Assembly (NCBI RefSeq): GCF_001708965.1
Contig: NZ_LVJW01000006.1
Coordinates: forward strand, 1,591,970 to 1,655,969
Direction of reading: 5' to 3'
Origin: Candidatus Thiodiazotropha endoloripes
Lineage (GTDB): Bacteria; Pseudomonadota; Gammaproteobacteria; Chromatiales; Chromatiaceae
Length of the DNA stretch: 64,000 nucleotides
The translations under genes were made by a program, and so were the position numbers. The number at the start of each line of letters is the position of its first letter. The stretch's first letter is position 1. Positions 2,853 through 32,073 of this stretch are shown one piece after another. The notes under the pieces are model-generated. The model did not search any database. It was not told the origin of the DNA and saw only the letters and a program-made list of their open reading frames with translations.

Positions 2853-3347
2853 AGGCGTTACCCGAAACTGTTTGGCAAGTTTGAATATAAGGCAGTCTGT
2901 TCCACATCCAGGTTCAATACTCTAACGGTTAAGTCGAATTGTCGAGTTTCCCAGCCTCGATTCACGCTGTATGGGTCAATCTCGTTAGCTGTATCGGGTT
3001 TGCGTGTAGGGGTATTACTACCCTCCAAAAGTAGGGTATCACCCCATAATAAAAAAACATGAGTCTTGTTAGGGTTTTGTTACTGTTTCACAAAAAGTAA
3101 CAAGTACGCTATGGGGTCCGATGGGTAGTAAACTGCTCGCTGGGATTCCGGGGGATAGCGGTGAGACAAGTGAGGATGGATGGGGTGGTCTGTGTCGTAC
3201 AGACAACAATAAGAAGGGATTGGCGTGATCGACATATTCTCAGGCAGTATGTATGTCGATCACGGATAATTCCCATGGCATCTCCTGCAGAATGAGTGAT
3301 TTGGTTTGCCTCAGAGTACCCGACCTGATTGACACTGACTGTGTTCT
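2853..3347. other. Intergenic region with inverted repeats
   Basis: No convincing gene is seen. The stretch holds a cluster of inverted repeats at 3009-3045, listed separately, and a second inverted repeat at 3077-3101 (TGTTACT and AGTAACA arms around an 11-nt loop). The open frame on the minus strand from 3423 to 3109 shows no family features and looks accidental. Confidence 0.5.
3009..3045. promoter_or_regulatory. Cluster of inverted repeats, possible regulator-binding sites
   Basis: Three alternating half-sites appear: AGGGGTA, then TACCCT, then TAGGGTA, flanked by outer GGGG and CCCC. They form two overlapping inverted repeats and one long imperfect palindrome. The reverse of the first half-site, TACCCCT, fits the NarL-type heptamer consensus, but the others deviate from it. 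This could be the operator of a LuxR/NarL-family regulator or just a stem-loop. Either the small membrane gene (minus strand) or the distant cytochrome-porin gene (plus strand) could be the target. Confidence 0.3.
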
Positions 3348-3567: not shown

Positions 3568-4830
3568 ATGAGTCAGAATCTTGTGAACCTGCATCGTTAT
3601 GCGATGTGCCTGTTGCTGCTGCTGGGGGGATTTTCAGTCAGCAATCAAGCCGAGGCGGTACCGGCCTTTGCCCGCCAGACGAGCATGCCTTGCACAGCCT
3701 GCCATTTTCAGCAATTTCCAGCGCTTAACTCGTTTGGCCGTTCATTCAGATCCGGTGGCTACACCCTGACCGGTGGGCAGGGGATGATCGAAGGGGACGA
3801 CATCTCTCTGCCTTTGATGCTCAACGCCTCTGTGATTACCAAACTCAGATACCAGAAGACCAACGGCAACACAGATGAAGGATCCGATCATGGTCAGATC
3901 GAATGGCCGGATGAGGCGGCTCTGCTGGTCGGTGGTAAGCTGGCCAAGGATGCAGGCTTCCTGATGGAGCTCGGGCTGACCGACGCCAACTCCTTCCTCT
4001 CCACCAAAGTTCACTTCAATGTAGCCAAAGCCGGTGCAACCCAGTTGAGTGCGATTCCTTTCTCCACTGATGGACTGGGCTCGGCTTACGGTTTCGAGCT
4101 GCTCAATACCGGCGCGCAACGTTCACAACGTCCAATCGAAGAGCGCAAAGGCTTCAGCGCCGCTCAGGCTCTGGGTCTGGGAAGCGGTGAAGCGACCGGT
4201 ATCGCCCTGGTCGCGTCCGGACACAACTATTTCGTCAACTACACCCCCTGGACACCGGGTTGGGAAGAGAACAACATGACCGTGAAACCTTCCGGTCTGG
4301 CCCACTATATCCGGGCGGCCTATACCCCGTTCATCGGTAGTTGGGACACCGGTTTCGGTGTTCAGGTCTGGACCGGTGATGCGGAAACCAGGAATCACGG
4401 TGAGGATACTGTCATCCCGACCGATGGCTGGGTCATCGATGCGCAGGCGCAGGGCAATGTGGGGAATATGCCTCTGGGTGTTTATGGCAGCTATGGTCAA
4501 TGCGAAGGCACCGATGCCGCCAACAGCGGTTTGACTCATTTTGCCGACAGCGGATTTTGTAATGGTGCGGATGATGCGGATTCATTTGCCATCCTTGGAC
4601 AATTGGGACTGCTGCCAAACAAGGCGAATGTATTTCTCGCCTATCGGACTTTGGATGACGGCTCGGATAACGACAACAAGTTCAACGCCACAACCGTTGG
4701 TGGCAACTATATGTTCTCGCAAAACATCCGCTTCGAGCTCTACTATGTCAAAGAGAGTGGCAGCGGTATCGATTCGCGTCCCGATGAGCGTGACAGCAAG
4801 TGGATGTTTCAACTGTTTGCCGGTTATTAA
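3568..4830 (+). CDS. Cyc2-like fused monohaem cytochrome c-outer membrane porin
   Basis: A 420-residue exported protein. A signal peptide ends near residue 30 (QAEA), followed at once by a short haem domain with one CTACH motif (Cys42, Cys45, His46) in the context FARQTSMPCTACHFQQ. The rest (about 350 residues) alternates short hydrophobic and aromatic strands with Gly/Asn/Asp-rich turns and ends in FQLFAGY with a terminal aromatic residue, as outer-membrane beta-barrels do. This build is that of Cyc2, the fused cytochrome-porin that takes electrons from Fe(II) at the cell surface. Related proteins of unknown substrate also occur in bacteria not known to oxidise iron. GGGAGA precedes the ATG. 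A dihaem cytochrome gene follows 87 nt later. Iron as substrate is an inference. Confidence 0.75.
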   Translation: MSQNLVNLHRYAMCLLLLLGGFSVSNQAEAVPAFARQTSMPCTACHFQQFPALNSFGRSFRSGGYTLTGGQGMIEGDDISLPLMLNASVITKLRYQKTNGNTDEGSDHGQIEWPDEAALLVGGKLAKDAGFLMELGLTDANSFLSTKVHFNVAKAGATQLSAIPFSTDGLGSAYGFELLNTGAQRSQRPIEERKGFSAAQALGLGSGEATGIALVASGHNYFVNYTPWTPGWEENNMTVKPSGLAHYIRAAYTPFIGSWDTGFGVQVWTGDAETRNHGEDTVIPTDGWVIDAQAQGNVGNMPLGVYGSYGQCEGTDAANSGLTHFADSGFCNGADDADSFAILGQLGLLPNKANVFLAYRTLDDGSDNDNKFNATTVGGNYMFSQNIRFELYYVKESGSGIDSRPDERDSKWMFQLFAGY

Positions 4831-4917
4831 TCGGCTGACGCTGTATCGGTCGCAGAATCCATACCCAGACAACGCCACCATACAGGTGGCGTGAGAGAAC
4901 CAATTGAGGAAAGACTC

Positions 4918-5565
4918 ATGAGTAGAATTGTTACCAGAGTGGTCAAGATTGCCGCAGTGTTCAGCCTGTTTTGTCTGACCCTGTCTGCGGCTAACGCAGG
5001 CAGTGCCTATGAAGGATATTCCCTGTTCAATCAAACCTGCTTCCTGTGCCATGGTACCAGCGGCAAAGGGGATGGCCCGCTGGCCGGCAAACTGGATATG
5101 TCACCATCGGATCTCACCAGCGATGGCAAGACAGACGATGAACGCTTGTTCGGTCTGATCAAAGGCACCATCGCACATGGTTCAGAGAAAAGTGCGATGC
5201 CCAAGTGGGGGCTGGCGATGCCGGAGAATCAGATCCGTTCACTGATGACCTATATCCGTTTTCTGCAGAACAGCAAGCACGCTCTGCCAGGGGATCCGGA
5301 ATTGGGTCACGATGTCTATATGTCGCGCTGTGTTGCCTGCCACGGTCGTGGTGGCATGGGGGATGGTCCGTTGACAGAACTGCTGACCATGAATGCTCAG
5401 AATCTCACCGATGCCAGTGAGCTGAACAAGCATCCGAACAGTGAGCTGATGAATATAATTACCAATGGAACGCCAGGTAACACCCTGATGCCTGGCTGGA
5501 AAGGCATACTTTCAGAAGAGGAGATAGCCGGTGTGCTCAGCTATGTCCGCCTGCTGGCCAAGTAA
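4918..5565 (+). CDS. Dihaem cytochrome c (tandem class I domains)
   Basis: A periplasmic protein of 215 residues with a signal peptide ending near AANA (about residue 27). Two similar cytochrome c domains follow, with haem motifs CFLCH (41-45) and CVACH (138-142). Each is followed by a Gly-rich GDGPL stretch, and the likely axial Met ligands lie in SAMPKWG and TLMPGWKG. The two halves look like an internal duplication. ATG at 4918 is preferred over an upstream in-frame start because TTGAGGA lies before it. The position directly after the cytochrome-porin gene suggests it carries electrons from the porin across the periplasm to an oxidase or to the bc1 complex. Confidence 0.88.
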   Translation: MSRIVTRVVKIAAVFSLFCLTLSAANAGSAYEGYSLFNQTCFLCHGTSGKGDGPLAGKLDMSPSDLTSDGKTDDERLFGLIKGTIAHGSEKSAMPKWGLAMPENQIRSLMTYIRFLQNSKHALPGDPELGHDVYMSRCVACHGRGGMGDGPLTELLTMNAQNLTDASELNKHPNSELMNIITNGTPGNTLMPGWKGILSEEEIAGVLSYVRLLAK

Positions 5566-5587: not shown

Positions 5588-5614
5588 GGCAGCCTGCATC
5601 GCTTGCAGGTTGCC
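5588..5614. terminator. Hairpin between convergent genes
   Basis: GGCA-CCTGCA pairs with TGCAGG-TGCC around a TCGC loop, with small mismatches. It lies 23 nt after the dihaem cytochrome stop and before the convergent lipoprotein gene. There is no long T run, so it is a weak terminator at best. Confidence 0.4.
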
Positions 5615-5670
5615 GGACTTCTCCCTTCAATTCTCTGTTCCAGCCTTTGCAGGCGCATAAGCAGCTACGC

Positions 5671-6252
5671 TCAGAGCTCATTGAGTATCCTTTTTCTTGT
5701 CGCACGATACTCCTCTTCACTGATCACAGCCTCACTTCGAAGGTTTTCCAGTCTCTGCAGGCGTGCCTTGATACTGGGATTGGCTGGCTGGGTTTCAGCT
5801 GTTGCGGGTTCCACCGGTTTGACCTGCTGCTCAGGCGGCTGTGCAGTAACGGGCTGTCTGCTCGGTTGTTGCGCCGGGGCGGTTTCGACTGTAGCTGAAC
5901 CTTTACTCTGTTCAGCGCCATCTTCGCAGTTCAGTTTGACCTGTAAACCCTTTGAGAAATCCTGATATTTGATCCGCTGGCTGAATGCCTCGCAGGTCGG
6001 TTTGCGGATCACGATTTTGCCGTACAGTTCGGCTTTACCCGCGTCGTAGGCGGCGGGATAGAGCTGATTCTGGGTGACTTCCAGAGGGGTGACGCCCAGG
6101 GCTTCGTCCAGTATGTAGACCGTTGCACCACTCGGCTGAGTTTCAATGCGCAGCGGCATCTCGCCGGATACCCCGCCAATACCGGTGCAGGCTGGAAGTT
6201 GTGTGATCAGCAGTATCGGTGCTGCCAAACGGGTCAATGTTTGCTTCGGCAT
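5671..6252 (-). CDS. PEGA-domain lipoprotein with C-terminal SHOCT-like motif
   Basis: A lipoprotein of 193 residues. The signal sequence ends in the lipobox LPAC (Cys near residue 22). A PEGA-like segment follows (TQPSGATVYI...GVTPLEV), then a Pro/Gln/Glu-rich linker, and the C-terminus (RLQRLENLR...ISEEEYRATRKRIL) matches the SHOCT pattern of short oligomerising tails. PEGA domains are common in surface or envelope proteins. The start is unclear: ATG at 6252 gives the cleanest signal sequence, while a TTG at 6264 in the same frame would add four residues. No partner is visible; the gene converges with the cytochrome gene. Confidence 0.75.
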   Translation of the reverse strand: MPKQTLTRLAAPILLITQLPACTGIGGVSGEMPLRIETQPSGATVYILDEALGVTPLEVTQNQLYPAAYDAGKAELYGKIVIRKPTCEAFSQRIKYQDFSKGLQVKLNCEDGAEQSKGSATVETAPAQQPSRQPVTAQPPEQQVKPVEPATAETQPANPSIKARLQRLENLRSEAVISEEEYRATRKRILNEL

Positions 6253-6596
6253 AGGGAAATCCAATCGGTCTCTGTGTCTCTGTTCTGGTTATTGTTGGTG
6301 ACTGTTTGTTGCGTATGGCGGTGGTTTCTCACTTGCCGCAACTCCCCCCGGTCACCGCGATGAGTATATAGCATGTCTGTTCGCTTGGCAGTCCACGCTT
6401 CCTTTCAGGTTTGATTTCTTAACCCTTAATTAACACTTAAGTTACTGTTCACACTTTGAAAAAAGAACGCTTGGGATTAAGTTTCGTTTAAGTTTCACGA
6501 GCTAGTTTAAGGTCAAAGGATGAAAACGACCTGGTGCACAAACGCCATAGTGGCAATTTAAAGTTGAGCCCGTTGATGCGGTCTCAGGAGGTATTT
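6253..6596. other. Intergenic region between divergent genes
   Basis: This is a divergent promoter region, AT-rich from 6410 to 6530. It contains the 11-bp direct repeats listed at 6477-6498 and a related TTAAGTTACTGTTCAC stretch just upstream. No gene is seen. Confidence 0.5.
6477..6498 (+). promoter_or_regulatory. Two adjacent 11-bp direct repeats (OmpR/PhoB-like spacing)
   Basis: TTAAGTTTCGT is followed directly by TTAAGTTTCAC, matching at 9 of 11 positions. Tandem sites one helical turn apart are typical for OmpR/PhoB-family response regulators. They lie about 100 nt upstream of the secreted protein gene at 6597. The regulator is unknown and no promoter boxes could be fixed with confidence. 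Confidence 0.35.
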
Positions 6597-7064
6597 ATGA
6601 AACATTTCATGTTTATGATTCAGAGCATTTTGGTTCTGGTATTCGGCATGACTCAAGTCTCTTTTCTCTATGCAGAATCCCTGGATTCCAAGCAGGCAGT
6701 GGGTGTCCCCTATGCACCTGATACTCTGGTCATGGTTGAAAAAGTGATCGCTATCGATGCCGATGGGCAGGCTCATACCCTCTACCAGGAAGAGGAGGGT
6801 CGGGTCTATCGACTGGATAATGTCAATCAGGTGGTGCATGACCTGAATGCCCGCGGGATCAAATCGAAAGGCAATTTTCACTCCCTGCAGGCCGTGCTGG
6901 CTCAGCGGGTCTTCGTGATGGGTAAGAACAATCAGCCCTATCCGGCCGAGCGGTCTGAGGTGGGTATCCCTGAAACCTATCGGTTGGCGGTAGAGAATCT
7001 GCGGGTAACCAAAGACCGGATAACCGCGATCTACACCACCAACTGTAACGGCCTGTCGATCTGA
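6597..7064 (+). CDS. Secreted protein of unknown function
   Basis: A protein of 155 residues with a signal peptide (MKHFMFMIQSILVLVFGMTQ, cleavage near the following YA-E). The mature part has no Cys pair or known motif apart from two short strands and one late Cys in TTNCNGL. The start at 6597 is chosen because a perfect AGGAGGT lies 6 nt upstream; an upstream in-frame ATG at 6534 would bury this signal sequence. I do not recognise the family. It is a single-gene unit bounded by a strong hairpin. Confidence 0.7.
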   Translation: MKHFMFMIQSILVLVFGMTQVSFLYAESLDSKQAVGVPYAPDTLVMVEKVIAIDADGQAHTLYQEEEGRVYRLDNVNQVVHDLNARGIKSKGNFHSLQAVLAQRVFVMGKNNQPYPAERSEVGIPETYRLAVENLRVTKDRITAIYTTNCNGLSI

Positions 7065-7099
7065 TCAACCCTGAGTTCGACGTAGTCGGAAGAGCCCTG

Positions 7100-7135
7100 T
7101 TTGGGGCAGTCGACCGCTTTGGTCGACTGTCCAAA
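7100..7135. terminator. Strong bidirectional hairpin
   Basis: The arms TTTGGGGCAGTCGACC and GGTCGACTGTCCAAA form a stem of about 15 bp with a single bulge and a GCTTT loop. A-rich and T-rich flanks on both sides allow it to end transcription from both strands, between the converging genes at 6597 and 7152. Confidence 0.7.
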
Positions 7136-7151
7136 ACGAAGTCGGATTGGC

Positions 7152-7862
7152 TTACTCAGCGCACAAATTGAAGGATTTTATCAGGCTCTCTTGCAGGATC
7201 GGCAGGGCATGGGCATCCAGCGCCTGGTAGGCAGCTTTGGTAATATGGGAGTAATCCTCGGTGTAGTAGCCAACCTTTCTGTTCCCCTCTTCGTTGGTCA
7301 TCACCTTTTCAATGTCCAGCATCGGGAATCCCATCTGATTCGCGTAGATCCTGACCCGCTCATTCACAGCCATGACATTGGTGCTGATGTAGTCCTGGAA
7401 GCTCTGCTTTCCGCGGATGTTGTTGATCCACCTTACCAGCGTATCCATGAATGAGTCAGGTAGACCCATGGTGATTTCTGTTGCCATTACCGGTGTGATA
7501 CCGGCCTGCTGGGCGGTTTCCGCCATCGCTTTGACATTTTGAAAGGCAGCCTCCCCAGTCTGATCGGCAACCTCTCTTGGGTGGTTGGAAAAATCGTTGA
7601 TGTATCCCCAGATGATGACAGCTTTGGGTTTGCTGGCGAGCAAATCCTGTTCAAATCGATCACGAACTTCACTTGAAACTGCACCGTTGACTCCGGTGTT
7701 GGTCACTTTCAGGCAATCCACCTGACTGATCGGCCAGGCTTTGGCGTATGAAGCGCCGGTGATCAACAGGTTTGCTTGTGGTTCAGTGATACTGACCTCC
7801 TGGGCCTGGAGAAGCATCGGCGTAAATAGCAGGGTCAGGATCGTTACTCGAAAGGATTTCAT
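7152..7862 (-). CDS. Exported SGNH/GDSL-family hydrolase
   Basis: A protein of 236 residues with a signal peptide (start MKSFRVTILTLLF, cleavage near LQAQ). The SGNH blocks are visible: block I is LLITGASYAKAW, with Ser in a GAS context instead of the usual GDS; block III is WGYIND with the Asn; block V is DYSH with the Asp/His pair near the C-terminus. This family hydrolyses esters or acyl groups on lipids and carbohydrates; the substrate is unknown. ATG at 7862 is chosen for its GGGAG ribosome site and the clean signal peptide. The open frame extends to 8108, but that part shows no protein-like features. Confidence 0.75.
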   Translation of the reverse strand: MKSFRVTILTLLFTPMLLQAQEVSITEPQANLLITGASYAKAWPISQVDCLKVTNTGVNGAVSSEVRDRFEQDLLASKPKAVIIWGYINDFSNHPREVADQTGEAAFQNVKAMAETAQQAGITPVMATEITMGLPDSFMDTLVRWINNIRGKQSFQDYISTNVMAVNERVRIYANQMGFPMLDIEKVMTNEEGNRKVGYYTEDYSHITKAAYQALDAHALPILQESLIKSFNLCAE

Positions 7863-8198
7863 CGGGCTATTGGCTCCCATGGGTCGGTTTGTGAAATATG
7901 AGTGACCATTGAATGTTCTGCTGGTCTTCCCTGTGATCTGTTTTTTGCCGGTTAGTTTATTGCAATCATCCAGCGACGCAACAGTGCGTGTTGAGATATG
8001 TGTAATCCGGGGCGGTTTGGGTCTTGCTGCGGAGCCTGAACAAATTATGCTTCCGTCTGCAGGGCAGGAGAGATCAGTTGTGGGCCCCGTGGCAGGGCAA
8101 GCCTGCAACGGTTTGAAGAGTGTCGAGTTTCTTTACAAAACCTCATAAGAACTAAAGGAATAAATACATAACACCCTGAAATTAATGGTATTAATATG
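7863..8198. other. Intergenic region
   Basis: Divergent intergenic DNA between the SGNH hydrolase and the PEP-CTERM gene. Short open frames here show no family features. It turns AT-rich from 8140 towards the promoter at 8200-8216. Confidence 0.5.
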
Positions 8199-8199
8199 T

Positions 8200-8216
8200 T
8201 AGGCATACTATTTGCA
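8200..8216 (+). promoter_or_regulatory. Sigma-54-type -24/-12 promoter
   Basis: GG at 8202-8203 and GC at 8214-8215 are exactly 10 nt apart within AGGCATACTATTTGCA. This matches the -24 element GGCAY and the -12 element TTGCA of RpoN promoters. Transcription would begin near 8227, giving a leader of about 28 nt with a GGACGGAG ribosome site. PEP-CTERM genes are known in several proteobacteria to be switched on by the PrsK/PrsR-RpoN system, which fits the gene it precedes. Confidence 0.6.
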
Positions 8217-8254
8217 TTTGCTTACGGAAAGTTATTGGACGGAGTCTACATTCG

Positions 8255-8947
8255 ATGGGTAAAAAAAGCTGGTATCTTTCTATTGCGCTGCTCTTCACGA
8301 GCCTGTTTGCAGCGCATTCACAAGCTGCTCTGATCGATCAGGGTGGTGGACTGATCTATGATACCGTGCTGGACGTCACCTGGCTTCAGGACGCTTCCTC
8401 CTACAAGGTCACCTATGAAAATGGTGAGCAGGATGCAGGTAAGCTGAACTACAATGACGCCTCTGCCTGGGTCGATAGCCTGGTCTATGAGGATACGGTT
8501 CGTGGCGTTGTATATGATGATTGGCGTCTGCCCACCACCTTTACACCCAGTGATGGGACCTGGTACGACGAAACCGGCCTGAGCAGTGAGTTGGCCTTTA
8601 TGTACTATGTCAATCTGGGCTATCCGGCGATCATCGCCGAGGCAGGGCAGGATCCTGCAGAGATACCCAATCCGACCTCCAGCAACTACAACCCCTTTCA
8701 AAATCTGCAATACCGGGGTTACTGGTCTGAAACCACCGTGGCCGGCAACGATCAGATGGCCTACTTCCTGCACTTTCACCTGGGTATTCAGGGTGCAACC
8801 AGTGTAGATGGGGATGAGCTGCGTGTCTGGGCGGTCAGGGATGGCAATGTCACTGCCGTACCGGCACCTCCTGCACTGCTGCTGTTACTCTCCGGTCTGG
8901 TGATGATGAGGTTCTTCAAGCGCGACAAAACCATGGCCGAGTCGTAG
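8255..8947 (+). CDS. DUF1566/Lcl-type protein with PEP-CTERM-like sorting signal
   Basis: An exported protein of 230 residues with a signal peptide ending near SQAA (about residue 24). The body resembles the DUF1566 (Lcl C-terminal) fold: DVTWLQDA near the start, NYNDASAWVDSL, DDWRLPT and a final LRVWAVRDG. The last 30 residues are AVPAPPALLLLLSGLVMM followed by RFFKRDK. This is a proline motif, a membrane helix and basic residues, the layout of PEP-CTERM/VPxPA signals handled by an exosortase. The protein is probably sorted to the cell surface or released matrix. No exosortase gene is in the window. The gene stands alone between a sigma-54-like promoter and a strong terminator. Confidence 0.85.
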   Translation: MGKKSWYLSIALLFTSLFAAHSQAALIDQGGGLIYDTVLDVTWLQDASSYKVTYENGEQDAGKLNYNDASAWVDSLVYEDTVRGVVYDDWRLPTTFTPSDGTWYDETGLSSELAFMYYVNLGYPAIIAEAGQDPAEIPNPTSSNYNPFQNLQYRGYWSETTVAGNDQMAYFLHFHLGIQGATSVDGDELRVWAVRDGNVTAVPAPPALLLLLSGLVMMRFFKRDKTMAES

Positions 8948-8978
8948 TTTCTCAACACTCCACAGAGTTAGGATGATT

Positions 8979-9009
8979 GCGCCCTGTTCTGCAGGGCGCT
9001 TTTTTTTTT
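8979..9009 (+). terminator. Rho-independent terminator
   Basis: GCGCCCTG and CAGGGCGC form an 8-bp GC-rich stem with a TTCTG loop, followed by ten T residues. It ends the PEP-CTERM gene. Confidence 0.92.
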
Positions 9010-9109
9010 GCAGAGTGCCGATGGAGTCTGTTGGCCACTGAAAATAGAGCGATCGGCTCTCAATCGGCTGTGCCTGATGTGGGTGTTGCGGGTAAGTCGA
9101 GGTGTGAGA

Positions 9110-9186
9110 TGGCGCGCCCGACAGGATTTGAACCTGTGACCCCCGCCTTCGGAGGGCGGTACTCTATCCAGCTGAGCTACGGGCGC
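9110..9186 (-). tRNA. tRNA-Arg (anticodon CCG)
   Basis: Read on the minus strand, the acceptor arms GCGCCCG and CGGGCGC pair perfectly. The D-arm AGCTCAGCTGGATAGAG follows, the anticodon arm CCGCC-CTCCGAA-GGCGG places CCG in the loop, and the T-arm ACAGG-TTCAAAT-CCTGT follows. The CCA end is encoded. It reads CGG arginine codons. Confidence 0.95.
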
Positions 9187-9409
9187 TGAGGTGCTGCAAC
9201 TCTCCGCAGCGCGGTGATTACAGCGATGCGTAGTTTAGCCCTCCCGGGAGGTGTCGTCCAACCCTGTTCGCTCTTTTTTTCATCCACGGGTATAATCGCC
9301 GGGTTTTTCGGAATGCCCATTGTTAACAGGCCCTAATAGGCCATGCTCAGGGCTTGAAGCAAGTCCATGAACAAGGCGTGCGGCGCAATCGATTGAAATA
9401 CGGAGGATT

Positions 9410-9946
9410 ATGCCCGTGAGTATCCATGTTGTAACTAAGTCTGGTGTGTTGACAGGTGTGGCTGTCGCATCGCTGCTGGTTTCTGCCCAGCTTTTCGCAG
9501 AAGAGCGTCCAGAGGTTCTGGAACGAATTGCCCCGATCGGCAAGGTGGCTGTTGAAGGTGCCGCAAAGCCTGCTGAGGCTGCGCCTGCAGCGGCTGCCGA
9601 GAGTGCGCCTGCCGCCACAGAAACAGCGGCCGCGCCGGCCGCCGAGGCCGCCCCGGCTGAAGAAGCTGCACCTGCTGCTGCTCCGGCTGCACCAACTGGT
9701 GATGCGCTGGCCGTCGCCACCACCTCCGGTTGCATGGCCTGTCACCAGGTCGAGACCAAGGTGGTCGGTCCAGCCTATAAAGAGGTAGCCGCTAAATACA
9801 AAGGTGACGCTGGAGCGGTTGATACGCTGGTCGCGAAAGTCAAGGCCGGTGGTGTCGGTACCTGGGGACAGATTCCCATGCCGCCCAACGCCCATGTCTC
9901 GGATGAGAACATCCGCGTCGTTGTGGAGTGGATCCTGAGTATGTGA
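9410..9946 (+). CDS. Cytochrome c5-type monohaem cytochrome with Ala/Pro-rich linker
   Basis: A protein of 178 residues with an N-terminal membrane anchor or signal (about 11-30). The segment ERIAPIGKVAVEG is typical of the cytochrome c5 family. About 50 residues almost entirely of Ala, Pro and Glu form a flexible arm, and the class I haem domain has CMACH (Cys108, Cys111, His112) and a likely Met ligand in IPMPPN. The long linker suggests a tethered electron shuttle between inner-membrane complexes. GGAGG lies only 3 nt before the ATG, so a GTG two codons downstream (9416) may be the true start. Highly Ala-rich open frames on the opposite strand are shadows of the linker. Confidence 0.87.
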   Translation: MPVSIHVVTKSGVLTGVAVASLLVSAQLFAEERPEVLERIAPIGKVAVEGAAKPAEAAPAAAAESAPAATETAAAPAAEAAPAEEAAPAAAPAAPTGDALAVATTSGCMACHQVETKVVGPAYKEVAAKYKGDAGAVDTLVAKVKAGGVGTWGQIPMPPNAHVSDENIRVVVEWILSM

Positions 9947-9955
9947 TGAAAGCGT

Positions 9956-9983
9956 CCGGCAGCCACAGTTGTGTGGTTGTCGG
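9956..9983. terminator. Hairpin between convergent genes
   Basis: CCGGCAGCCACA and TGTGGTTGTCGG pair with one mismatch around a short loop, placed between the cytochrome stop and the rep stop. No T run follows on the plus strand. Confidence 0.45.
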
Positions 9984-9988
9984 GCAGT

Positions 9989-11992
9989 TCAACTGAGCAT
10001 CGATTTCAGATTGGCCAGATGGGCCGATCCCCGCGCCTGCTGCTCCTCCTTGCTGAGCTTGTTGCCTCGGCCCTCCCAAACCAGGTCCTCTTCCGGTAGC
10101 TCCTGCAGAAAGCGGCTCGGCTCTCCGGCAACCATTTCACCGAAACGTTTGCGTTTACTGGCATAGCTCATGGTCAGGGTGCGTTGCGCCCGGGTGATGC
10201 CCACGTAGGCCAGCCTGCGCTCCTCTTCGATGTTGTCCTCTTCGATGCTGCTGCGATGGGGTAGCAACTCCTCCTCCATGCCGACCAGGAAAACATGGGG
10301 GAACTCCAGTCCTTTGGCCGCGTGCAGGGTCATCAGGTGGACCTGATCCTGTTCGCCTTCATCCTCCTGACGCTGCAGCATGTCCATCAGCGTCAGATGG
10401 TTGACCATCTCCGCCAGGGTCTTCTCCTGCAGTTCACCATGCTGTAGGGCTTTCAACCAGTCCATCAGATCGGTGACATTCTCCATCCGTGCCTCGGCGA
10501 TGCCGTCACTGCTGGCATTCTCTTTCAGCCAGCCCAGGTAGTCGATCTCTTCGATCAGGGCGCGGAAGGCCGCTGCCGGATCCGAGTCAGCCTTTTGCGC
10601 ATGGTGTTGGATCAGTTGGGAAAAGTGCTGCAGGCGCTCATAGGGGCGACTGCTGAGCAGGCTCTTCAGACCAATCTCTTCGCAAGCGGGCAGCAAGGCG
10701 CTGCCACGCTGCTGGGCATACTCGGCAAGTTTCTCCAGGGTGGTCGGACCGATCTCCCGGCGCGGGGTGTTGACGATGCGCAAAAAGGCGCTGTCATCGG
10801 TGGGATTGGCCAGCAGTCGCAGATAGGCCATGCCGTCTTTGACTTCGGTGCGGGAGAAGAAAGAGGTACCGCCACTGAGAAAATAGGCAATGTTATGGCT
10901 GCGCAGGGCCTTCTCGAACAGTTTCGCCTGATGATTACCCCGGTAGAGAATGGCGCAATCCCGGTTGTTGACCTTGGCGGTGAACTTCAGGTGGATGATT
11001 TCCGATACCACCCGCTCTGCCTCCTGGGCCTCATTGGGGCAGACCAGGACTCGCAACTCCGGGCCAAGGCCGAGCTCACTCCAGAGCTTCTTTTCAAACA
11101 CATGGGGGTTCTTGCTGATCAGCTGGTTGGCAGATCTGAGGATGCGGCCACTGGAGCGATAGTTCTGCTCCAGCTTGATCAGTTTCAGGGTTGGGAAATC
11201 GGCCTGCAGACGGGCCAGGTTTTCCGGCCGGGCGCCTCGCCAGGCATAGATCGATTGATCGTCGTCCCCCACCACGGTGAACGCAGCCCTTACCCCGGCC
11301 AACAGTTTGACCAGCTCATATTGGGCCTGATTGGTGTCCTGGTACTCATCCACCAGCAGATAGCGGATCCGGTCCTGCCACTGATCGAGTACCTGGGGAT
11401 GGCTGCGAAACAGACTTACCGGCAGTAGGATCAGGTCGTCGAAATCGACCGCGTTGAAGGCCTTCAGACTGCGCTGATAGGCCGCGTAGAGAAGTGCCTG
11501 CCCCTGTTGCAGATCGTTTTCCGCCTGCTGCAGGGCCTGCTCCGGAGTGATCAGGTCGTTTTTCCAGGCGGATATGGTCCACTGGGCGGCGTTCACCACC
11601 GAGTCGTCCCCCAGGTTCTGTTTGCGTAACAGATCCTTAAGCAGTCCGGCGCTGTCCTGTTGGTCAAAGATCGAGAAGCCCGACCGATAGCCCAACCTCT
11701 TCAGCTCCTGACGGACGATGTTCAATCCCAGATTGTGAAAGGTGGAGATTCGCGGAAGTTGCTGTTGATGATCACCCAGAGTTTTGGCGACCCGCGCTTT
11801 CATCTCCCGGGCCGCCTTGTTGGTGAAGGTGACCGCGGTGATCTGCTGCGGGTTGAGTCCGCAGCGCTTGATCAGGTAGCTGATCTTGGCGGTGATGACC
11901 CGGGTTTTTCCGCTGCCGGCCCCCGCCAATACCAGTAGCGGTGTGTCGATATAGTTGACCGCTTGCTGTTGTCTTGGGTTGAGGTCGGACAT
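9989..11992 (-). CDS. rep: ATP-dependent DNA helicase Rep
   Basis: A superfamily 1A 3'-5' helicase of 667 residues that helps replication forks past bound proteins. Visible motifs are the Q-motif LNPRQQQAV, Walker A AGAGSGKT (near 22-29), Ia TFTNKAAREM, Walker B LLVDEYQDTN, motif III VVGDDDQSIYAWRGA, motif IV QNYRSSGRI, motif V LMTLHAAKGLEF and motif VI YVGITRAQR. Length and the NYIDTPLLVLAGAGS start fit Rep better than UvrD (about 720 residues). It is a single gene, convergent with the cytochrome gene and divergent from the LOG-family gene. Confidence 0.95.
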   Translation of the reverse strand: MSDLNPRQQQAVNYIDTPLLVLAGAGSGKTRVITAKISYLIKRCGLNPQQITAVTFTNKAAREMKARVAKTLGDHQQQLPRISTFHNLGLNIVRQELKRLGYRSGFSIFDQQDSAGLLKDLLRKQNLGDDSVVNAAQWTISAWKNDLITPEQALQQAENDLQQGQALLYAAYQRSLKAFNAVDFDDLILLPVSLFRSHPQVLDQWQDRIRYLLVDEYQDTNQAQYELVKLLAGVRAAFTVVGDDDQSIYAWRGARPENLARLQADFPTLKLIKLEQNYRSSGRILRSANQLISKNPHVFEKKLWSELGLGPELRVLVCPNEAQEAERVVSEIIHLKFTAKVNNRDCAILYRGNHQAKLFEKALRSHNIAYFLSGGTSFFSRTEVKDGMAYLRLLANPTDDSAFLRIVNTPRREIGPTTLEKLAEYAQQRGSALLPACEEIGLKSLLSSRPYERLQHFSQLIQHHAQKADSDPAAAFRALIEEIDYLGWLKENASSDGIAEARMENVTDLMDWLKALQHGELQEKTLAEMVNHLTLMDMLQRQEDEGEQDQVHLMTLHAAKGLEFPHVFLVGMEEELLPHRSSIEEDNIEEERRLAYVGITRAQRTLTMSYASKRKRFGEMVAGEPSRFLQELPEEDLVWEGRGNKLSKEEQQARGSAHLANLKSMLS

Positions 11993-12156
11993 TTAACGGT
12001 GGTCTTTACGGCTGCTGGACAGAGGCGAAAGGGTACGCAGTGGCGTTATCGATTTCAACACTGGCGTCAATGCCTGATATGATGGGTAGGGCAGGGCTGG
12101 TTTCGGCAAACTGCGATAAAGAGCCCTGTAAGCGTCCAGAAAAAAGAAGAGATTTC

Positions 12157-12879
12157 ATGGTAATAACACAAGACAGACGCCGCAATCCCCGGGGTGGCGC
12201 AGAGGGTCAGCTGACCCGTGAATCCTGGCGTGTTTTTCAGATCATGGCCGAATTTGTCGAGGGTTTCGAGCAGCTGGCTCAGATCAGCCCTTCGGTGAGT
12301 TTTTTCGGCTCGGCAAGAACGCCACGGGACCATCCTCACTACGCCCTGGCGGAAGAGATTGCCCGGTTGCTCTCCGACAGTGGATTCTCCGTGGTCAGCG
12401 GTGGAGGGCCCGGCATCATGGAGGCCGCCAACAAGGGGGCCTTTGAGGGGAAGTCCACCAGCATCGGGCTGAATATCCAGCTGCCGATGGAGCAGTCCGG
12501 TAATCCCTATCAGGATATCTCGCTCAACTTCCGTCACTTTTTTGCCCGCAAGGTGATGTTCGTCAAGCACGCCTCTGCCTATGTGGTGCTGCCGGGCGGG
12601 TTTGGAACCCTGGATGAGATGGCTGAGATCCTGACCCTTGTGCAGACCGGCAAAACCCGTAAGATCCCGATCATCCTGGTGGATGGCAAGTTCTGGGGTG
12701 GGCTGCTGGATTGGTTTCGCGATACGCTCTGCCCCGCCGGCACCATCGACCAGGAAGACCTGGATCTGGTGCAGGTCTGCGAACAGCCGCAACAGGTTGT
12801 GGATGCCATCTTCAACCACTACGAAACACGACGCTTCGAGCCCTCTCCTGCGGAGCAGGAGATACTGCTTGAGCTGTAA
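12157..12879 (+). CDS. LOG-family protein (TIGR00730-type Rossmann fold)
   Basis: A cytoplasmic protein of 240 residues with the two signatures of the LOG/lysine-decarboxylase-like fold: VVSGGGPGIMEAANKGA and PGGFGTLDEMAE. Proteins of this family cleave nucleoside 5'-monophosphates to base plus ribose 5-phosphate (cytokinin-activating type, or PpnN-type in nucleotide turnover). The catalytic Arg and Glu context (RKVMFVKHA, PGGFGTLDE) is intact. ATG at 12157 is chosen since AAGAGA precedes it and the upstream extension to 12040 shows no conservation-like features. The next gene starts 22 nt downstream. Confidence 0.85.
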   Translation: MVITQDRRRNPRGGAEGQLTRESWRVFQIMAEFVEGFEQLAQISPSVSFFGSARTPRDHPHYALAEEIARLLSDSGFSVVSGGGPGIMEAANKGAFEGKSTSIGLNIQLPMEQSGNPYQDISLNFRHFFARKVMFVKHASAYVVLPGGFGTLDEMAEILTLVQTGKTRKIPIILVDGKFWGGLLDWFRDTLCPAGTIDQEDLDLVQVCEQPQQVVDAIFNHYETRRFEPSPAEQEILLEL

Positions 12880-12901
12880 TAATCTCCCATGGAGGGAGGA
12901 C

Positions 12902-13249
12902 ATGATGAACAAGCTGAATCTCCTGGTCAAAGCCCTGTTGAGTGTCGCGCTGCTCTCTGGTCTGCCGCTCTACGCTGAGGATCAGGCAGTACCTGAGCCA
13001 CCGGAGCTGCCCCTGCCCGAGGTGATCGTCGACGGTGAAGTGATCGAGCCCGATATCACCATCATCAAACGGGATGAGGGTACGATTACCGAATACCGGG
13101 TCAATGGCCAGCTCTATATGGTGAAGATTCAGCCGGACAACGGGCCTGCCTACTACATGAGCGACCGGGATGGGGATGGGGAGTTCGATTCCCGCTCCAA
13201 CGACCCGACCGATATTTCCGTACCCCAATGGATACTGCTGCGCTGGTGA
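12902..13249 (+). CDS. DUF2782 family exported protein
   Basis: A protein of 115 residues with a signal peptide (cleavage near LYAE, about residue 25) and a Pro/Glu-rich start. A compact domain containing ITIIKRDEGTITEYRVNGQL and a C-terminal PQWILLRW fits DUF2782. The function is unknown; this family is common in Gammaproteobacteria, often near DNA polymerase I. GGAGGGAGGA directly precedes two adjacent ATG codons, so the second (12905) may be used. The TRAP small subunit gene starts 10 nt downstream, suggesting co-transcription. Confidence 0.8.
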   Translation: MMNKLNLLVKALLSVALLSGLPLYAEDQAVPEPPELPLPEVIVDGEVIEPDITIIKRDEGTITEYRVNGQLYMVKIQPDNGPAYYMSDRDGDGEFDSRSNDPTDISVPQWILLRW

Positions 13250-27972: not shown

Positions 27973-28667
27973 GAGTAGTACTACCTGAGAATGGTTAAGT
28001 AAAGTGCGAATAGTGTCGGATGGGGCTGATACACACATTGAAAAAACTCAATCCCCTTATGAATAGTCAGGGTATGCGGCCGACATAGGCCCAGTCGCTG
28101 AAGTAACGGATGATTAGTCTGTTAGGGGAAGGAAATGATTGGTGTTAATGCAGCAAGGCACTGTTATGTATGGGATATCTTGCTTTTTACAGTACATTCA
28201 CTAGAAAGGGGGTATTCAAGCAACGATCCATTAACATGGAAGCATCTCTTTGTGGAAATAGAGGAATCGATCGAACCGCACAAGCCAACGGTAATCTCTG
28301 TTTACCCTCTCTTCAAACGAATCATTCAATTGATAGATCAAAATCTGTCTGGGAATCTATTACCCGAGAGGCGGTAGCAGTACTTCATCCTCTTGTTCGT
28401 CATTCTCTTGAAGCAACCCCTTACAAAATACTTACTTCCTGTGCCTAATAGTGAGTAGTGAAATGTTTGACACTAAGTGGAATGTACAACCAGGATTAAG
28501 ATAGTTTTTTAAATAAAACAGATTGTTAGTGAGGAGTTTAAGTAAGATTGATCTTGAAATATTGATCAGGCAGTCAAACAAGAACATTTGTAGTACTATC
28601 GGTGTGTTAACGCATTATATGTGCCGTCCACATAATCAACAGTTAGGTTACAAAAGAGATTATATTT
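27973..28667. other. AT-rich intergenic region at left edge of accessory block
   Basis: A 695-bp gap. Two overlapping open frames (28135-28448) have no ribosome site and no protein-like composition, so I do not call them. Base composition drops towards AT from about 28130 and stays so to 32050, which marks a likely boundary of acquired DNA. A stem ATTATATGTG/CACATAAT near 28614-28635 precedes GTTAGGT; see the cassette finding. Confidence 0.5.
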
Positions 28668-29300
28668 ATGAGCGGATGTTGTGACGGAGGATGTTCAGTA
28701 AATGCCCTTCAAGAAGAGCGACAACGAGGAACACTTAAAACTGTCTTAGGCATCAATGCTATCATGTTTATCGTGATAGTTGGTGCTGCCATATACGGTG
28801 ATTCTACGGCGTTACTTGCCAATAGCTTTGATAATTTCGGTGATGCTCTTACTTATGCATTAAGCTTATTTGCTATTTCTCGTGGCAATAATATGAAAGC
28901 TAAGGTTGCCTTTTTTAAAGGTGTACTTATTCTTTTGGCAGCAATAATTGTAACAACCCAAATCATTTACAAACTTTTTGTTCCAGGCGTACCTGTTTTC
29001 GAGGCAATGGGTATCTTCGGCATTCTAAGTCTTATTGCAAATTCTATATGTCTTTTTCTTCTTTGGCGTCATCGCCATGAAGATGTGAATATGAGTTCAG
29101 TATGGGCATGCTCGCGAAATGACATTGCCTCAGATCTTTCAGTAATTATTGCTGCCGGAGCTGTTTGGTTATCAGGGTCAGGCTGGCCTGATATAATTGT
29201 AGCGTTAGTACTTGTAATTCTATTGTATCGCTCAGCGTTTCGCGTTATTTCCTCAGCAAAAGCTGAGCTACACAATTCAACTATACTAACCGATTATTGA
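28668..29300 (+). CDS. Cation diffusion facilitator family transporter
   Basis: An inner-membrane protein of 210 residues with about six hydrophobic segments. It starts with a Cys-rich MSGCCDGGCS. Metal-site residues of the CDF family are visible in LLANSFDNFGDALTYA (two Asp four residues apart) and in RNDIASDLSV (Asn/Asp and Asp). It stops directly after the sixth segment and so lacks the usual cytoplasmic C-terminal domain of about 90 residues. That short form exists in the family. It probably exports Zn, Cd or Co. AT-rich codon use differs from the window average. Confidence 0.85.
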   Translation: MSGCCDGGCSVNALQEERQRGTLKTVLGINAIMFIVIVGAAIYGDSTALLANSFDNFGDALTYALSLFAISRGNNMKAKVAFFKGVLILLAAIIVTTQIIYKLFVPGVPVFEAMGIFGILSLIANSICLFLLWRHRHEDVNMSSVWACSRNDIASDLSVIIAAGAVWLSGSGWPDIIVALVLVILLYRSAFRVISSAKAELHNSTILTDY

Positions 29301-29330
29301 AAGCGTTGAGTATTTAAGAGATAGAGCTGC

Positions 29331-29774
29331 ATGAGATCGTATTGCTATCGAGAAATGTGTCCTGGTGAAGAACAGATGGTTTGCGCTTTGGTGGCACAGG
29401 TTTTTAAGGAATATATGGCTTCAGTTTATCGCCAATCCAGAGGCACTGAAAGTGCGTATGCAGTCTGATGGCTTTGTGCTGGTGGCGGTACAAGATGATA
29501 CAATTGTTGGTATGTTAGAGTTTTGTCCTCCAAATATGGTAGCTCTGCTGTTTGTGACCGTCAGGCATCAAGGTATAGCAAAAAACTATTGGCTCGTTCA
29601 CTAGATAAGGCATCTATTTCAGACCCGAATCTATCAAAACTCATAGTGCATTCCTCACCATATGTCGAGCCAATCTACCAAAAGATGGGTTTTTACATAA
29701 CTGGAAGCGTAGAAACAGATAGTGGAATTACCTATATCTCTATGGAACTCTTACTTCAGCACGAAAATACCTGA
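29331..29774 (+). pseudogene. GNAT acetyltransferase broken by two frameshifts
   Basis: One acetyltransferase is spread over three frames. Frame one starts at 29331 (MRSYCYREMCPGEEQMVCAL...VFKEYMA). Frame two carries ANPEALKVRMQSDGFVLVAV and VGMLEF, then MVALLFVTVRHQGIAK. Frame three carries KLLARSLDKA...IVHSSPYVEPIYQKMGFY and ends at 29774. Together these give the full order of a GNAT domain, including the acetyl-CoA loop region (near RHQGIAK) and the final YxxxGF element. The gene is not functional unless frameshifting or sequencing errors explain the breaks. It lies in the AT-rich block. Confidence 0.8.
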
Positions 29775-29870
29775 AAAAAATCTCAACAACGATTAAGATT
29801 TGTTCACTCGTCTGACGCTATCACGCAAGCGGTTTACTGAGCGTTATGCAGATACTGATTGAGGTGCGAT

Positions 29871-30728
29871 ATGAATAGAGTCCTTATAGCAGGAGCCACA
29901 GGTTACTTGGGCGGATATATTGCCAAAGAGCTTGTGAAATTGTCATATCCTGTCAGAGCGCTTGTGCGCAATCCTGAAAAACTAAAACAAAACAAGATTG
30001 AAGTAACTGAAATAGTTCAGTCAGAAATAACCCGGCCTGATTCTATCAAAGATTGCTGTAAAAATATTGATGTAGTCATTTCTACAGTAGGTATCACACG
30101 GCAAAAAGAAGGCCTCACCTATATGGATGTGGACTATCAGGCAAATATGAATCTTTTGCAGGAAGCAAAAAAGCACGGAGTAAAAAAGTTCATTTATATT
30201 TCTGTTTTAAATGGGGAGAATCTTAGAGATTTGAAAATATGTGAAGCAAAAGAGCTGTTCGTCAAACAGCTGATAGAGTCAGGATTGGATTACTGCATCA
30301 TTCGCCCAAATGGATTTTTCTCAGACATGACTGAGTTTTATAAAATGGCAACAAAAGGCCGAGTCTATCTATTCGGTGATGGTGAGCTGAAAACGAACCC
30401 GATACATGGCGAGGATCTGGCTGCAGTCTGTATTGAAGCTATTCAAAAGCCTGATCAGGAAATCAAGGTCGGCGGGCCCGAAACCTTATCTCATAATGAG
30501 ATTGCAACGGTAGCCTTTGATGCGCTGGGTATCAAACCGAAAATAACTCATATTCCAAATTGGGTGCGCGTTGTTACTCTCAAAATTGTTAGATTATTTA
30601 CTGGGAGCAAAGTGTATGGACCAATCGAATTCTTTATGACAGTTATGGCGATGGATATGGTTGCACCTGAGTATGGAAGACATACATTAAGAGAATATTT
30701 TACTAACCTGAATCAAGTAAATAGATAA
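29871..30728 (+). CDS. NAD(P)-binding SDR-family protein (NmrA-like, atypical SDR)
   Basis: A cytoplasmic protein of 285 residues. The N-terminal Rossmann motif is GATGYLGGYIA, then NIDVVISTVGITR and VKKFIYISV. The classic YxxxK catalytic pair is not evident, as usual for atypical a5 SDR or NmrA-like proteins that bind NAD(P) and act as redox sensors or reductases. The C-terminal half (INPNGFFSDM-like region and helix-rich end) follows the family. GAGG lies 6 nt before the ATG. Low-GC codon use ties it to the block. Confidence 0.85.
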   Translation: MNRVLIAGATGYLGGYIAKELVKLSYPVRALVRNPEKLKQNKIEVTEIVQSEITRPDSIKDCCKNIDVVISTVGITRQKEGLTYMDVDYQANMNLLQEAKKHGVKKFIYISVLNGENLRDLKICEAKELFVKQLIESGLDYCIIRPNGFFSDMTEFYKMATKGRVYLFGDGELKTNPIHGEDLAAVCIEAIQKPDQEIKVGGPETLSHNEIATVAFDALGIKPKITHIPNWVRVVTLKIVRLFTGSKVYGPIEFFMTVMAMDMVAPEYGRHTLREYFTNLNQVNR

Positions 30729-30854
30729 CAAATTACTACACAAGGATTGTCAGCATTGATAATCTATCAAGCTGTAAACTAAAAAATACTATCTACTTTA
30801 TATCAATAAGTCATTTAAAAACATGTATATTCACGCTTCCAATGACGGTGACCA

Positions 30855-31226
30855 ATGATAAAGCAAGTTTTGTTATTACGAATCAGTTATTGGCTTGCTG
30901 CAGTTGCGGACTTTGCTGTCGCGATATTAGTGTGGATACCTGAAAGGATGGGGGTAACTGAAACAGTCTATCCAATGGGGCTCGCATCTGCAGTAATCCT
31001 CTCATGGGCCGTACTTTTATTGATGGCCGATAGAAAACCTTTGGAAAGAAGGTGGATACTAATACCAACGATTCTTGTCGTTGCATTGTTAGCTATCACA
31101 CGAACTCTATTTTCACAGGATGGCGCTATTGAGTTTAGTATTGTTCTGCTTCTTTTTGCAATTGCACTGATCATCTTTATGGCTTATAGCTACTACTACG
31201 CTGGTAAATATCAAGCAAGTAACTAG
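30855..31226 (+). CDS. Small integral membrane protein
   Basis: A protein of 123 residues with four hydrophobic helices (about 9-27, 40-57, 67-83 and 91-113). No motif for a known family was recognised. It lies in the AT-rich block with 126 nt to the SDR gene and no terminator between. AT-rich coding biases suggest transfer. Confidence 0.65.
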   Translation: MIKQVLLLRISYWLAAVADFAVAILVWIPERMGVTETVYPMGLASAVILSWAVLLLMADRKPLERRWILIPTILVVALLAITRTLFSQDGAIEFSIVLLLFAIALIIFMAYSYYYAGKYQASN

Positions 31227-31334
31227 CCTTATATTAAAATACACATAACAACTCTCCCGTTTGGACGCACATTTCGCTGCGTTTCATTTGCTTCGCGCAG
31301 CTTTAACCTTGCTTTTCTAGAAAAGGAGACGCCA

Positions 31335-31769
31335 ATGATTATTACGATAGGTATAATCACAATCATCTTGGGTCTGATTGGCTGGGTCGGGCAAACATTG
31401 GCAGTTTTTAATAATGAATTGGCCACGAAGCTCGGGCTTTCTGAAACTGAAGAAGTAATGGACCCTACGATGCTTGCTTTCGAACGATTCAGCATGGGCA
31501 TCATGGATTTTTTGCTCATGTGGATTCTTCCCCTATCAGGATATTTGATGATTATTGGCAATGAGTGGTGGCCTGTGCTTGCGCTCGTTGGGGGAGCCGT
31601 TTATTTGTACATACCAGGCTGTTTCAGCATCACCAGAATTGTGTTGGGAAAGCGTGGGTTAAAGATTGGAACTCGTTCGGCGCTGATAACCGCCTATGTT
31701 CTCGCTGTACTTTGGACTGTAGACGCCTTGGTAATGATGAGTTTGGCAGTCAAAGCGTTGAACTTGTAA
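31335..31769 (+). CDS. Small integral membrane protein
   Basis: A protein of 144 residues with an N-terminal helix (about 2-24) and further helices at about 53-73, 77-96 and 110-138. AGGAG lies 7 nt before the ATG. No family was recognised. A loop with ETEEVMDPTMLAFE separates the first and second helices. It is the last gene of the AT-rich block. Confidence 0.65.
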   Translation: MIITIGIITIILGLIGWVGQTLAVFNNELATKLGLSETEEVMDPTMLAFERFSMGIMDFLLMWILPLSGYLMIIGNEWWPVLALVGGAVYLYIPGCFSITRIVLGKRGLKIGTRSALITAYVLAVLWTVDALVMMSLAVKALNL

Positions 31770-32073
31770 TAAATACCAAAAATCACTAAAGATGCTTTCA
31801 AGGCGCTCCTACGGTTGAATCATTACTGCGCCAATAAGTATTATGGTGTTAGCGAAATAAGCTGGAACTTTATAGTGGCTAGACTTTTCGCTCGTGCTCC
31901 TCTTTTTGCTATAGAAGCAAATACTAATTGTTGTAGATCAAAGCAAAATTCCAGTTTAGTAACAATATAGAGATCTGACGCATTATTGACCTATCCAGCG
32001 ACAAAATAGGTCATTTCTATCGCGACCCTGCAGTAGATACGCGATATCTAATTTCACACCAGGGAGCGAACTC
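31770..32073. other. Intergenic region at right edge of accessory block
   Basis: No gene is seen. It is AT-rich up to about 32010, then gradually takes on the composition of the resident DNA. It presumably holds the promoter of the pentapeptide gene. Confidence 0.4.

Follow-up and report, generated by a model that had tools for sequence, protein, structure and literature searches.

A cyc2 gene of a lucinid clam symbiont adjoins genes for a dihaem cytochrome c and a PEGA-SHOCT lipoprotein

Results

A cytochrome-porin of the Cyc2 family

At positions 3568-4830 of the window, as we call the whole 64,000-nucleotide stretch of DNA that was analysed, lies a forward-strand open reading frame with an ATG start and a product of 420 amino acids. 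The gene, cyc2, would encode an outer-membrane cytochrome-porin that its sequence, homologues, tree position and structural model place in the Cluster 1 type. The protein contains AVPAFARQTSMPCTACHFQQFPALNSFGR, has exactly one CXXCH and ends in QLFAGY, the last residue being Tyr; the signal peptide and its AEA cleavage site were called by inspection only. Residues 30-38, AVPAFARQT (3655-3681), match the Cyc2 motif AXPXFAR[Q/K][T/Y], and residues 42-46, CTACH (3691-3705), are the single haem-binding site, with a PXL four residues later. Cyc2 proteins have been delimited by this motif, a CXXCH, a PXL, a barrel of 16 strands and a length of 365 aa or more (PMC8406198), and the window protein displays the motif, the single CXXCH with its PXL and the length (420 against at least 365 aa). 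CTACH is separated from PAL by four residues in the window and in the Gallionella and Mariprofundaceae rows of our alignment, and by three in 18 of the 19 remoter, outer rows of the tree described below. A perfect 13-bp inverted repeat was observed at 3224-3264, in the long stretch 5' of cyc2.

The long chain that follows the haem domain has no Pfam family over cut-off (Porin_4 is sub-threshold, with 21.3 bits against a cut-off of 27), and the protein has no NCBIfam match. Residues 86-419 (3823-4824) were assigned to a β-barrel because of the full-length homologues and an AlphaFold2 model with Foldseek matches to porins. The model (pLDDT 82.4, pTM 0.81) has a barrel of 16-17 strands and a weakly modelled haem domain (mean pLDDT 41-54 over residues 21-50), and its best porin match has an E-value of 4.5e-11, with TM-scores of about 0.4-0.5 by query length. 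The matches comprise OmpT, Omp32, OprP and OprO, which have 16 strands, and also MOMP and AlgE, which have 18. The model accords with the fused, 16-stranded barrel expected of a Cyc2, and the protein is predicted to lie in the outer membrane. An earlier reading of this DNA from its letters (the sequence-only reading) had described a Cyc2-like cytochrome-porin in which a single CTACH follows the signal peptide and the last residue is aromatic, and had named a barrel of 14-18 strands as the structural feature to look for; the gene and its model agree with it on each of these points.

The protein belongs to the Cyc2 tree

We searched genome contigs with a 9-row alignment (A1) and checked the 497 pattern matches with tblastn (E ≤ 1e-3). 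A relative is encoded at 401 of the 497, a degree of homology that excludes a chance occurrence of the pattern, and the best 80 of the 401 were retained. By tblastn, a Gallionella match (L065) shows 37% across residues 8-402 and a Mariprofundaceae MAG match (L084) 27% across residues 28-420 (E 2e-26). In a tree of 78 rows, from which L032, L044 and L082 were left out for their short or broken frames and L068 for want of a called frame, the window falls with Gallionella and Mariprofundaceae in a clade of 58 rows (99/97); outside it stand 19 remoter Cyc2-like rows (99/98) and L077b, on a very long branch. The program warned of joined long branches, the Mariprofundaceae rows among them. We read the 58-row clade as Cluster 1, the neutrophile type, on a set of genome-contig rows that does not include the characterised PV-1, A. 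ferrooxidans and Leptospirillum reference proteins.

Conserved positions point the same way. The window keeps 18 of the 27 barrel columns that are invariant in six Gallionella/Zetaproteobacteria rows, against a mean of 7.2 for the 19 outer rows. Counted over all conserved columns the difference is less clear (39 of 52 against an outer mean of 26.5), because the haem domain is common to all rows. The tree and the barrel model together rule out a soluble cytochrome or a non-Cyc2 relative. Placement in a clade of soluble cytochromes was the phylogenetic outcome that would have spoken against the sequence-only reading, and the protein falls instead within the Cyc2 tree; the same reading had left open whether this was Cyc2 itself or a related protein with a different substrate, a choice that motif and tree now turn towards the Cluster 1 type.

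Other gene arrangements were seen around the outer-type genes. A one-haem ORF follows the Cyc2-like gene at L087 (7278-7769), L092 (7504-8139), L095 (7403-7933) and L102 (7382-7858), loci of three Bacteroidota and BMS3Abin03, in a pairing that differs from the window's. Separately, L077 carries tandem Cyc2-type genes (5588-7027 and 7460-9148), the second of them very divergent.

A dihaem cytochrome c gene directly follows cyc2

The next gene on the same strand (4918-5565) encodes a dihaem cytochrome c of 215 aa with two class I domains, which we class as CcoP-like. Its ATG at 4918, chosen by comparison with relatives, stands 87 bases after the end of cyc2, and a GTG at 4891 (ORF 4891-5565) is also possible as a start. 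The product has CXXCH sites encoded at 5038-5052 and 5329-5343 and matches both Cytochrome_CBB3 and Cytochrom_C over two stretches each, as expected from the sequence-only reading, which had paired the porin with a dihaem c of two class I domains. We infer that the two genes are co-transcribed. Promoter and terminator scans returned sites in numbers below the mean of shuffles. A hairpin with an 8-bp perfect stem lies between the genes (4872-4892, forward strand; fold z-score −2.05 in the window), and the case for its conservation is weak, with z-scores from −2.60 to +0.20 in seven sequences.

In a 20-row alignment of the dihaem protein both CXXCH are invariant, and each domain has one conserved Met (M94 nearly invariant, M191 invariant), as in His/Met class I cytochromes. 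The top profile match is CcoP, from cbb3 oxidases (5.2e-17), with c4 (8uf3) at 3.1e-5; the best Foldseek match is 6h5l_B, a cytochrome of a Kuenenia complex, and c4 comes at rank 20. An identification as Cyc1/c4 is unsupported by these rankings, and the protein appears nearer to CcoP than to c4/Cyc1 in a comparison that AfCyc1 itself stands outside.

The dihaem gene lies directly after cyc2 in 30 of the best 80 of the 401 loci, all within one gammaproteobacterial branch. Its open frame begins within 100 bases past the end of cyc2, or overlaps it, in 28 of the 30; at the other two the cyc2 frame is broken. It does not follow cyc2 at the remaining 50 of the 80 loci, among which L068 (no cyc2 frame) and L082 (no downstream sequence) are not judgeable. 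Weak matches to the dihaem protein occur in one-haem ORFs at L069 (E 6e-9, 5.2 kb off) and L091 (E 1e-7, just upstream of cyc2). At L090 a two-CXXCH ORF (7352-8017) follows an outer-type Cyc2-like gene and does not match the window dihaem at E 1e-3.

Some loci within the branch have no adjoining dihaem gene: L054, L062 (with L154 on the same contig), L153 and L157. The tree implies two state changes for its 29 dihaem rows, because L054 and L062 nest among them without the gene. A wider sample of the class gave a match at 1e-20 in 35 of 369 genomes. From it we took 12 further loci (11 genomes), the best-scoring besides G000 and G009, which both have the full set; neither the dihaem nor the PEGA gene was found at any of the 12, L160 having only 147 bases downstream and not being judgeable, L153 having 1.3 kb and L154 lying on the L062 contig. 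L153 and L157 fall inside the gammaproteobacterial branch in a quick tree that left out the 19 outer rows, L077b and 10 near-duplicates. The notion that the dihaem gene marks the whole gammaproteobacterial branch is weakened by this count of none in 12, and the exceptions make the pairing a branch trait with exceptions and no general rule for Cyc2.

A convergent gene encodes a PEGA-SHOCT lipoprotein

About 100 bases beyond the dihaem gene, and convergent with it, domain searches, alignment and locus comparison identified a reverse-strand gene (5671-6252) whose product would be a lipoprotein that combines a PEGA domain with a SHOCT-like C-terminus. Its start is ATG 6252, with TTG 6264 also possible; Cys22 is conserved and the lipobox was recognised by inspection. 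In an alignment of 15 members PEGA is matched by 14 and SHOCT by 14 (E 0.01), the window's own protein matching PEGA over cut-off and SHOCT weakly. At E 1e-3 the gene was found, again downstream and in convergent orientation, at 26 of the 30 loci with the dihaem gene, the four without it being L046, L050, L051 and L053. Outside the branch it was encountered at one locus, L074, where a PEGA-SHOCT type C-terminus (8931-9200) lies 1.66 kb from a dihaem-less Cyc2 gene, with a transposase-like ORF between them.

We also compared the flanks of 17 branch loci, taking ORFs of 130 aa or more at a threshold of E 1e-15 and leaving aside cyc2 and the dihaem gene. In each of eight lucinid-symbiont loci just one flanking ORF is shared with the tubeworm-symbiont loci L038 and L041, and in the two pairs examined for its position, L029/L038 and L031/L038, this ORF sits where the lipoprotein gene lies. 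The sequence-only reading had recognised the pair correctly, but it described a two-gene unit and missed the PEGA-SHOCT gene, the conservation across the branch and the dihaem paralog reported below.

The three genes are present or absent together

We surveyed 56 relatives, 22 genomes of the genus and 34 of other genera, counting the dihaem gene at 320 bits or more. In 19 of the 22 Thiodiazotropha genomes cyc2, the dihaem gene and the lipoprotein gene stand side by side, and all three are absent from the same three others, one of which (G017) has a 49-bit dihaem match with stops. The 19 are not independent events, because the genomes are related, and the set is dispensable, since three genomes of the genus are without the whole of it. 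The full set occurs in none of the 34 genomes of other genera: the Cyc2-like matches of G041 and G055 fall in the N-terminal part of the profile, a dihaem paralog (238 bits) is present in G027, and in G029 the end of the lipoprotein profile is matched at 28 bits. A profile search (E 1e-5) found no second Cyc2 in the window's own genome, and across the genus the profile marks one copy per genome, that of G001 being in two pieces.

The cyc2 frame is unbroken in 17 of the 22 genomes. It is broken at G001:C3 54887-56112 (L016/L025) and at G011:C247 (L008), where the dihaem and lipoprotein frames are unbroken; both are draft assemblies, in which assembly error and decay of cyc2 are indistinguishable. 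The dN/dS ratios are 0.046-0.094 for cyc2 (estimable in six of seven comparisons) and 0.125-0.231 for the dihaem gene (four of seven), with synonymous sites near saturation except in the closest pair; they indicate that purifying selection keeps both genes. A relic of a free-living past, no longer in use by the symbiont, could account for the three genomes without the set and the two broken frames, but we consider it very unlikely, given dN/dS ratios well below 1, the 17 unbroken frames and the presence or absence of the three genes together.

Host genome and a second possible conduit

The window's genome (4.46 Mb, near-complete) is that of "Candidatus Thiodiazotropha", a sulfur-oxidising symbiont of lucinid clams; tblastn of contigs gave the symbiont of Stewartia floridana (99%) and Ca. 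Thiodiazotropha endoloripes (98%) as the best named matches of the locus. SoxB scores 885.6 bits against a curated cut-off of 550, in keeping with the sulfur-oxidising background that the sequence-only reading had thought probable and, rightly, non-acidic, and there are four genes of the COX1 family, which can include NO reductases. Published work on T. endoloripes describes oxidases of the aa3 and cbb3 types, a Sox and a reverse Dsr pathway, and the ability to use oxygen and nitrate as acceptors (PMC6872982). Elsewhere in the window, a monohaem class I cytochrome c follows a long Ala/Pro/Glu-rich stretch, possibly a flexible tether, at 9410-9946, and GC falls to 0.40 at 28001-32000 against 0.51-0.58 in the remaining blocks.

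A paralog of the dihaem protein (228 bits) is encoded on contig C3 of the same genome, in what may be a second extracellular electron conduit (L116, G000:C3:1436000-1449000, 5816-12963, minus strand). This cluster encodes two trihaem c7-type cytochromes, a 671-aa protein of barrel-like look with no family assigned, an NHL protein, an 11-CXXCH cytochrome and the dihaem paralog, whose C-terminal extension has sub-threshold matches to SixA-type phosphatases. Four of five further genomes of the genus have a similar cluster (L118, L119, L120 and L122), and L121 differs. A 27-row dihaem tree puts the cyc2-linked rows on one side of a branch (100/99) and five conduit-linked rows in another group (93/90). 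That one carrier family is attached to two candidate conduits of the outer membrane favours a role as periplasmic acceptor of the electrons that enter through them; this would most likely be the function of the dihaem cytochrome.

Discussion

A probable inward path for electrons

Our results are consistent with an inward electron path whose outer-membrane entry is the Cyc2 system. A soluble one-electron donor, most likely Fe(II), would reduce the single haem of Cyc2, in its small N-terminal domain. From there the electron would pass to the product of the next gene, the dihaem cytochrome c of the periplasm, and on to the respiratory chain, through an oxidase or bc1, while the PEGA-SHOCT lipoprotein would probably help to position the complex at the outer membrane or keep it there. 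We regard this reading, with Fe(II) as the leading donor and the lipoprotein as a helper, as probable on balance. Contacts among the partners are presumed in it, and the path might serve free-living cells, cells within the host, or both.

It is the protein family that makes Fe(II) the likeliest donor. The three function-tested Cyc2 proteins, one per cluster, all oxidise iron, that of Mariprofundus (208 mV) among them (PMC8406198). Fe(II) also supported the growth of Sulfuriferula, sulfur oxidisers whose cyc2 belongs to Cluster 2 (PMC12285272). The same conduit could nevertheless take electrons from solids or partners (iron sulfide minerals, cells or an electrode) and not from dissolved Fe(II). 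On general grounds free Fe(II) should be scarce in a sulfide-rich habitat, the genome has a second, Uet-like cluster with its own dihaem paralog, and Ca. Tenderia expresses its cyc2 differently at two cathode potentials, more highly at one of them (PMC5371394), a response that is a precedent for the inward path as well. A single haem in a 16-strand barrel, on the other hand, predicts a dissolved donor (PMC8406198), and we hold such other donors to be possible but unlikely.

In mangrove sediments where Thiodiazotropha is active, cyc2 was lowly expressed, with transcripts only from Gammaproteobacteria (4.94 TPM; PMC12400630), which counts against an energetic role in sediments. Low expression would suit a protective or sensory Cyc2, one that yields little energy but clears Fe(II) or a sulfur species from the cell surface or signals the redox state; likewise, the zetaproteobacterial epibionts of a vent shrimp have been suggested to shield their host from Fe(II) (PMC5566968). 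A respiratory path, however, accords better than a sensor with the presence of a linked electron carrier in the periplasm, and we judge this explanation improbable.

The direction of flow would be inward in the path that we favour, yet direction cannot be read from sequence and dihaem carriers can, as is generally known, run both ways, so that the pair might export electrons to an external acceptor. Against such export speak the iron oxidation by all three tested Cyc2 proteins and the oxygen and nitrate that T. endoloripes can use as acceptors, and we give it very little credence.

A more elaborate form of the inward path can be imagined, in which cytochrome-porin, CcoP-like acceptor and a lipid-anchored PEGA-SHOCT tether or assembler would make up a dedicated three-part system of chemosynthetic animal symbionts, giving 'sulfur' symbionts a second lithotrophic source of electrons in dissolved or sulfide-bound iron, with the same carrier family draining the Uet-like conduit. 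This we put forward as a tentative and rather doubtful proposal; if true, both entry points at the outer membrane would feed into a single periplasmic line.

Implications for sulfur symbioses

The gene set hints that the symbionts of lucinid clams and vestimentiferan tubeworms, model hosts for the study of sulfur symbiosis, may also live on iron or outside electrons; a set of iron-oxidase type makes the use of iron or extracellular electrons directly testable. The dihaem and PEGA-SHOCT genes supply candidates for the periplasmic electron taker and for the other members of the complex, a step of the neutrophilic Cyc2 pathway that is still unsettled. Since Cyc2 has been used to date iron oxidation (PMC12442345), its function in symbionts also bears on that dating. 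The premise there that Ca. Thiodiazotropha is only seen with lucinids fits uneasily with the Thiodiazotropha MAGs active in mangrove sediment (PMC12400630).

Comparison with known systems

Cyc2 in such symbionts is already known. Orthologs in lucinid endosymbionts have been reported, iron oxidation there not being shown (PMC12442345), as have Cyc2-like genes in tubeworm endosymbionts (PMC5566968); in all likelihood those reports concern this very gene in such organisms, and for the lucinid symbionts the single profile copy in each genome of the genus makes the identity with the window gene very probable. The gene neighbourhood is unreported as far as we found: we saw no description of the genes next to cyc2 in those two papers and, in the open-licence literature searched, no account of the cyc2-dihaem-PEGA-SHOCT set and no paper joining Cyc2 and PEGA. 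The pairing singled out by the sequence-only reading is real, but its novelty was overstated, symbiont Cyc2 and the cyc2-cyc1 order having both been published.

That order, cyc2 beside cyc1, is the classic one of the rus operon (PMC10654088), and cyc1 is a dihaem cytochrome gene (PMC7029218), so the Acidithiobacillus operon resembles the window in having cyc2 and then a gene for a periplasmic dihaem cytochrome. It differs in that Cyc1 is of the c4 type (PMC10654088), whereas the window dihaem is CcoP-like, and in its further genes: the cyc2 neighbours examined here include genes for an ABC transporter, the PEGA-SHOCT protein and a GDSL lipase-like protein, and no rusticyanin, cup, cox, c4 or oxidase gene was among them.

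With the Cyc2 of Cluster 1 (Mariprofundus ferrooxydans PV-1, Gallionellaceae, Chlorobium) the window protein shares the signal peptide, AXPXFAR[QK][TY], CXXCH and PXL, a similar length, the 16-17-strand barrel and the placement in the tree. Its host, in contrast, is a sulfur-oxidising symbiont, and the dihaem and PEGA-SHOCT genes that are usual in its branch were not found at the Gallionella loci L065, L066 and L072 and the Mariprofundaceae/Zetaproteobacteria loci L083-L086. Finally, the second cluster of this genome, likened by arrangement alone, resembles the Uet conduit of Ca. Tenderia and some Gallionella (PMC10734462) in its 11-haem, trihaem, NHL and barrel-like proteins, and differs from it in ending with a paralog of the Cyc2-linked dihaem cytochrome that carries a SixA-like extension.
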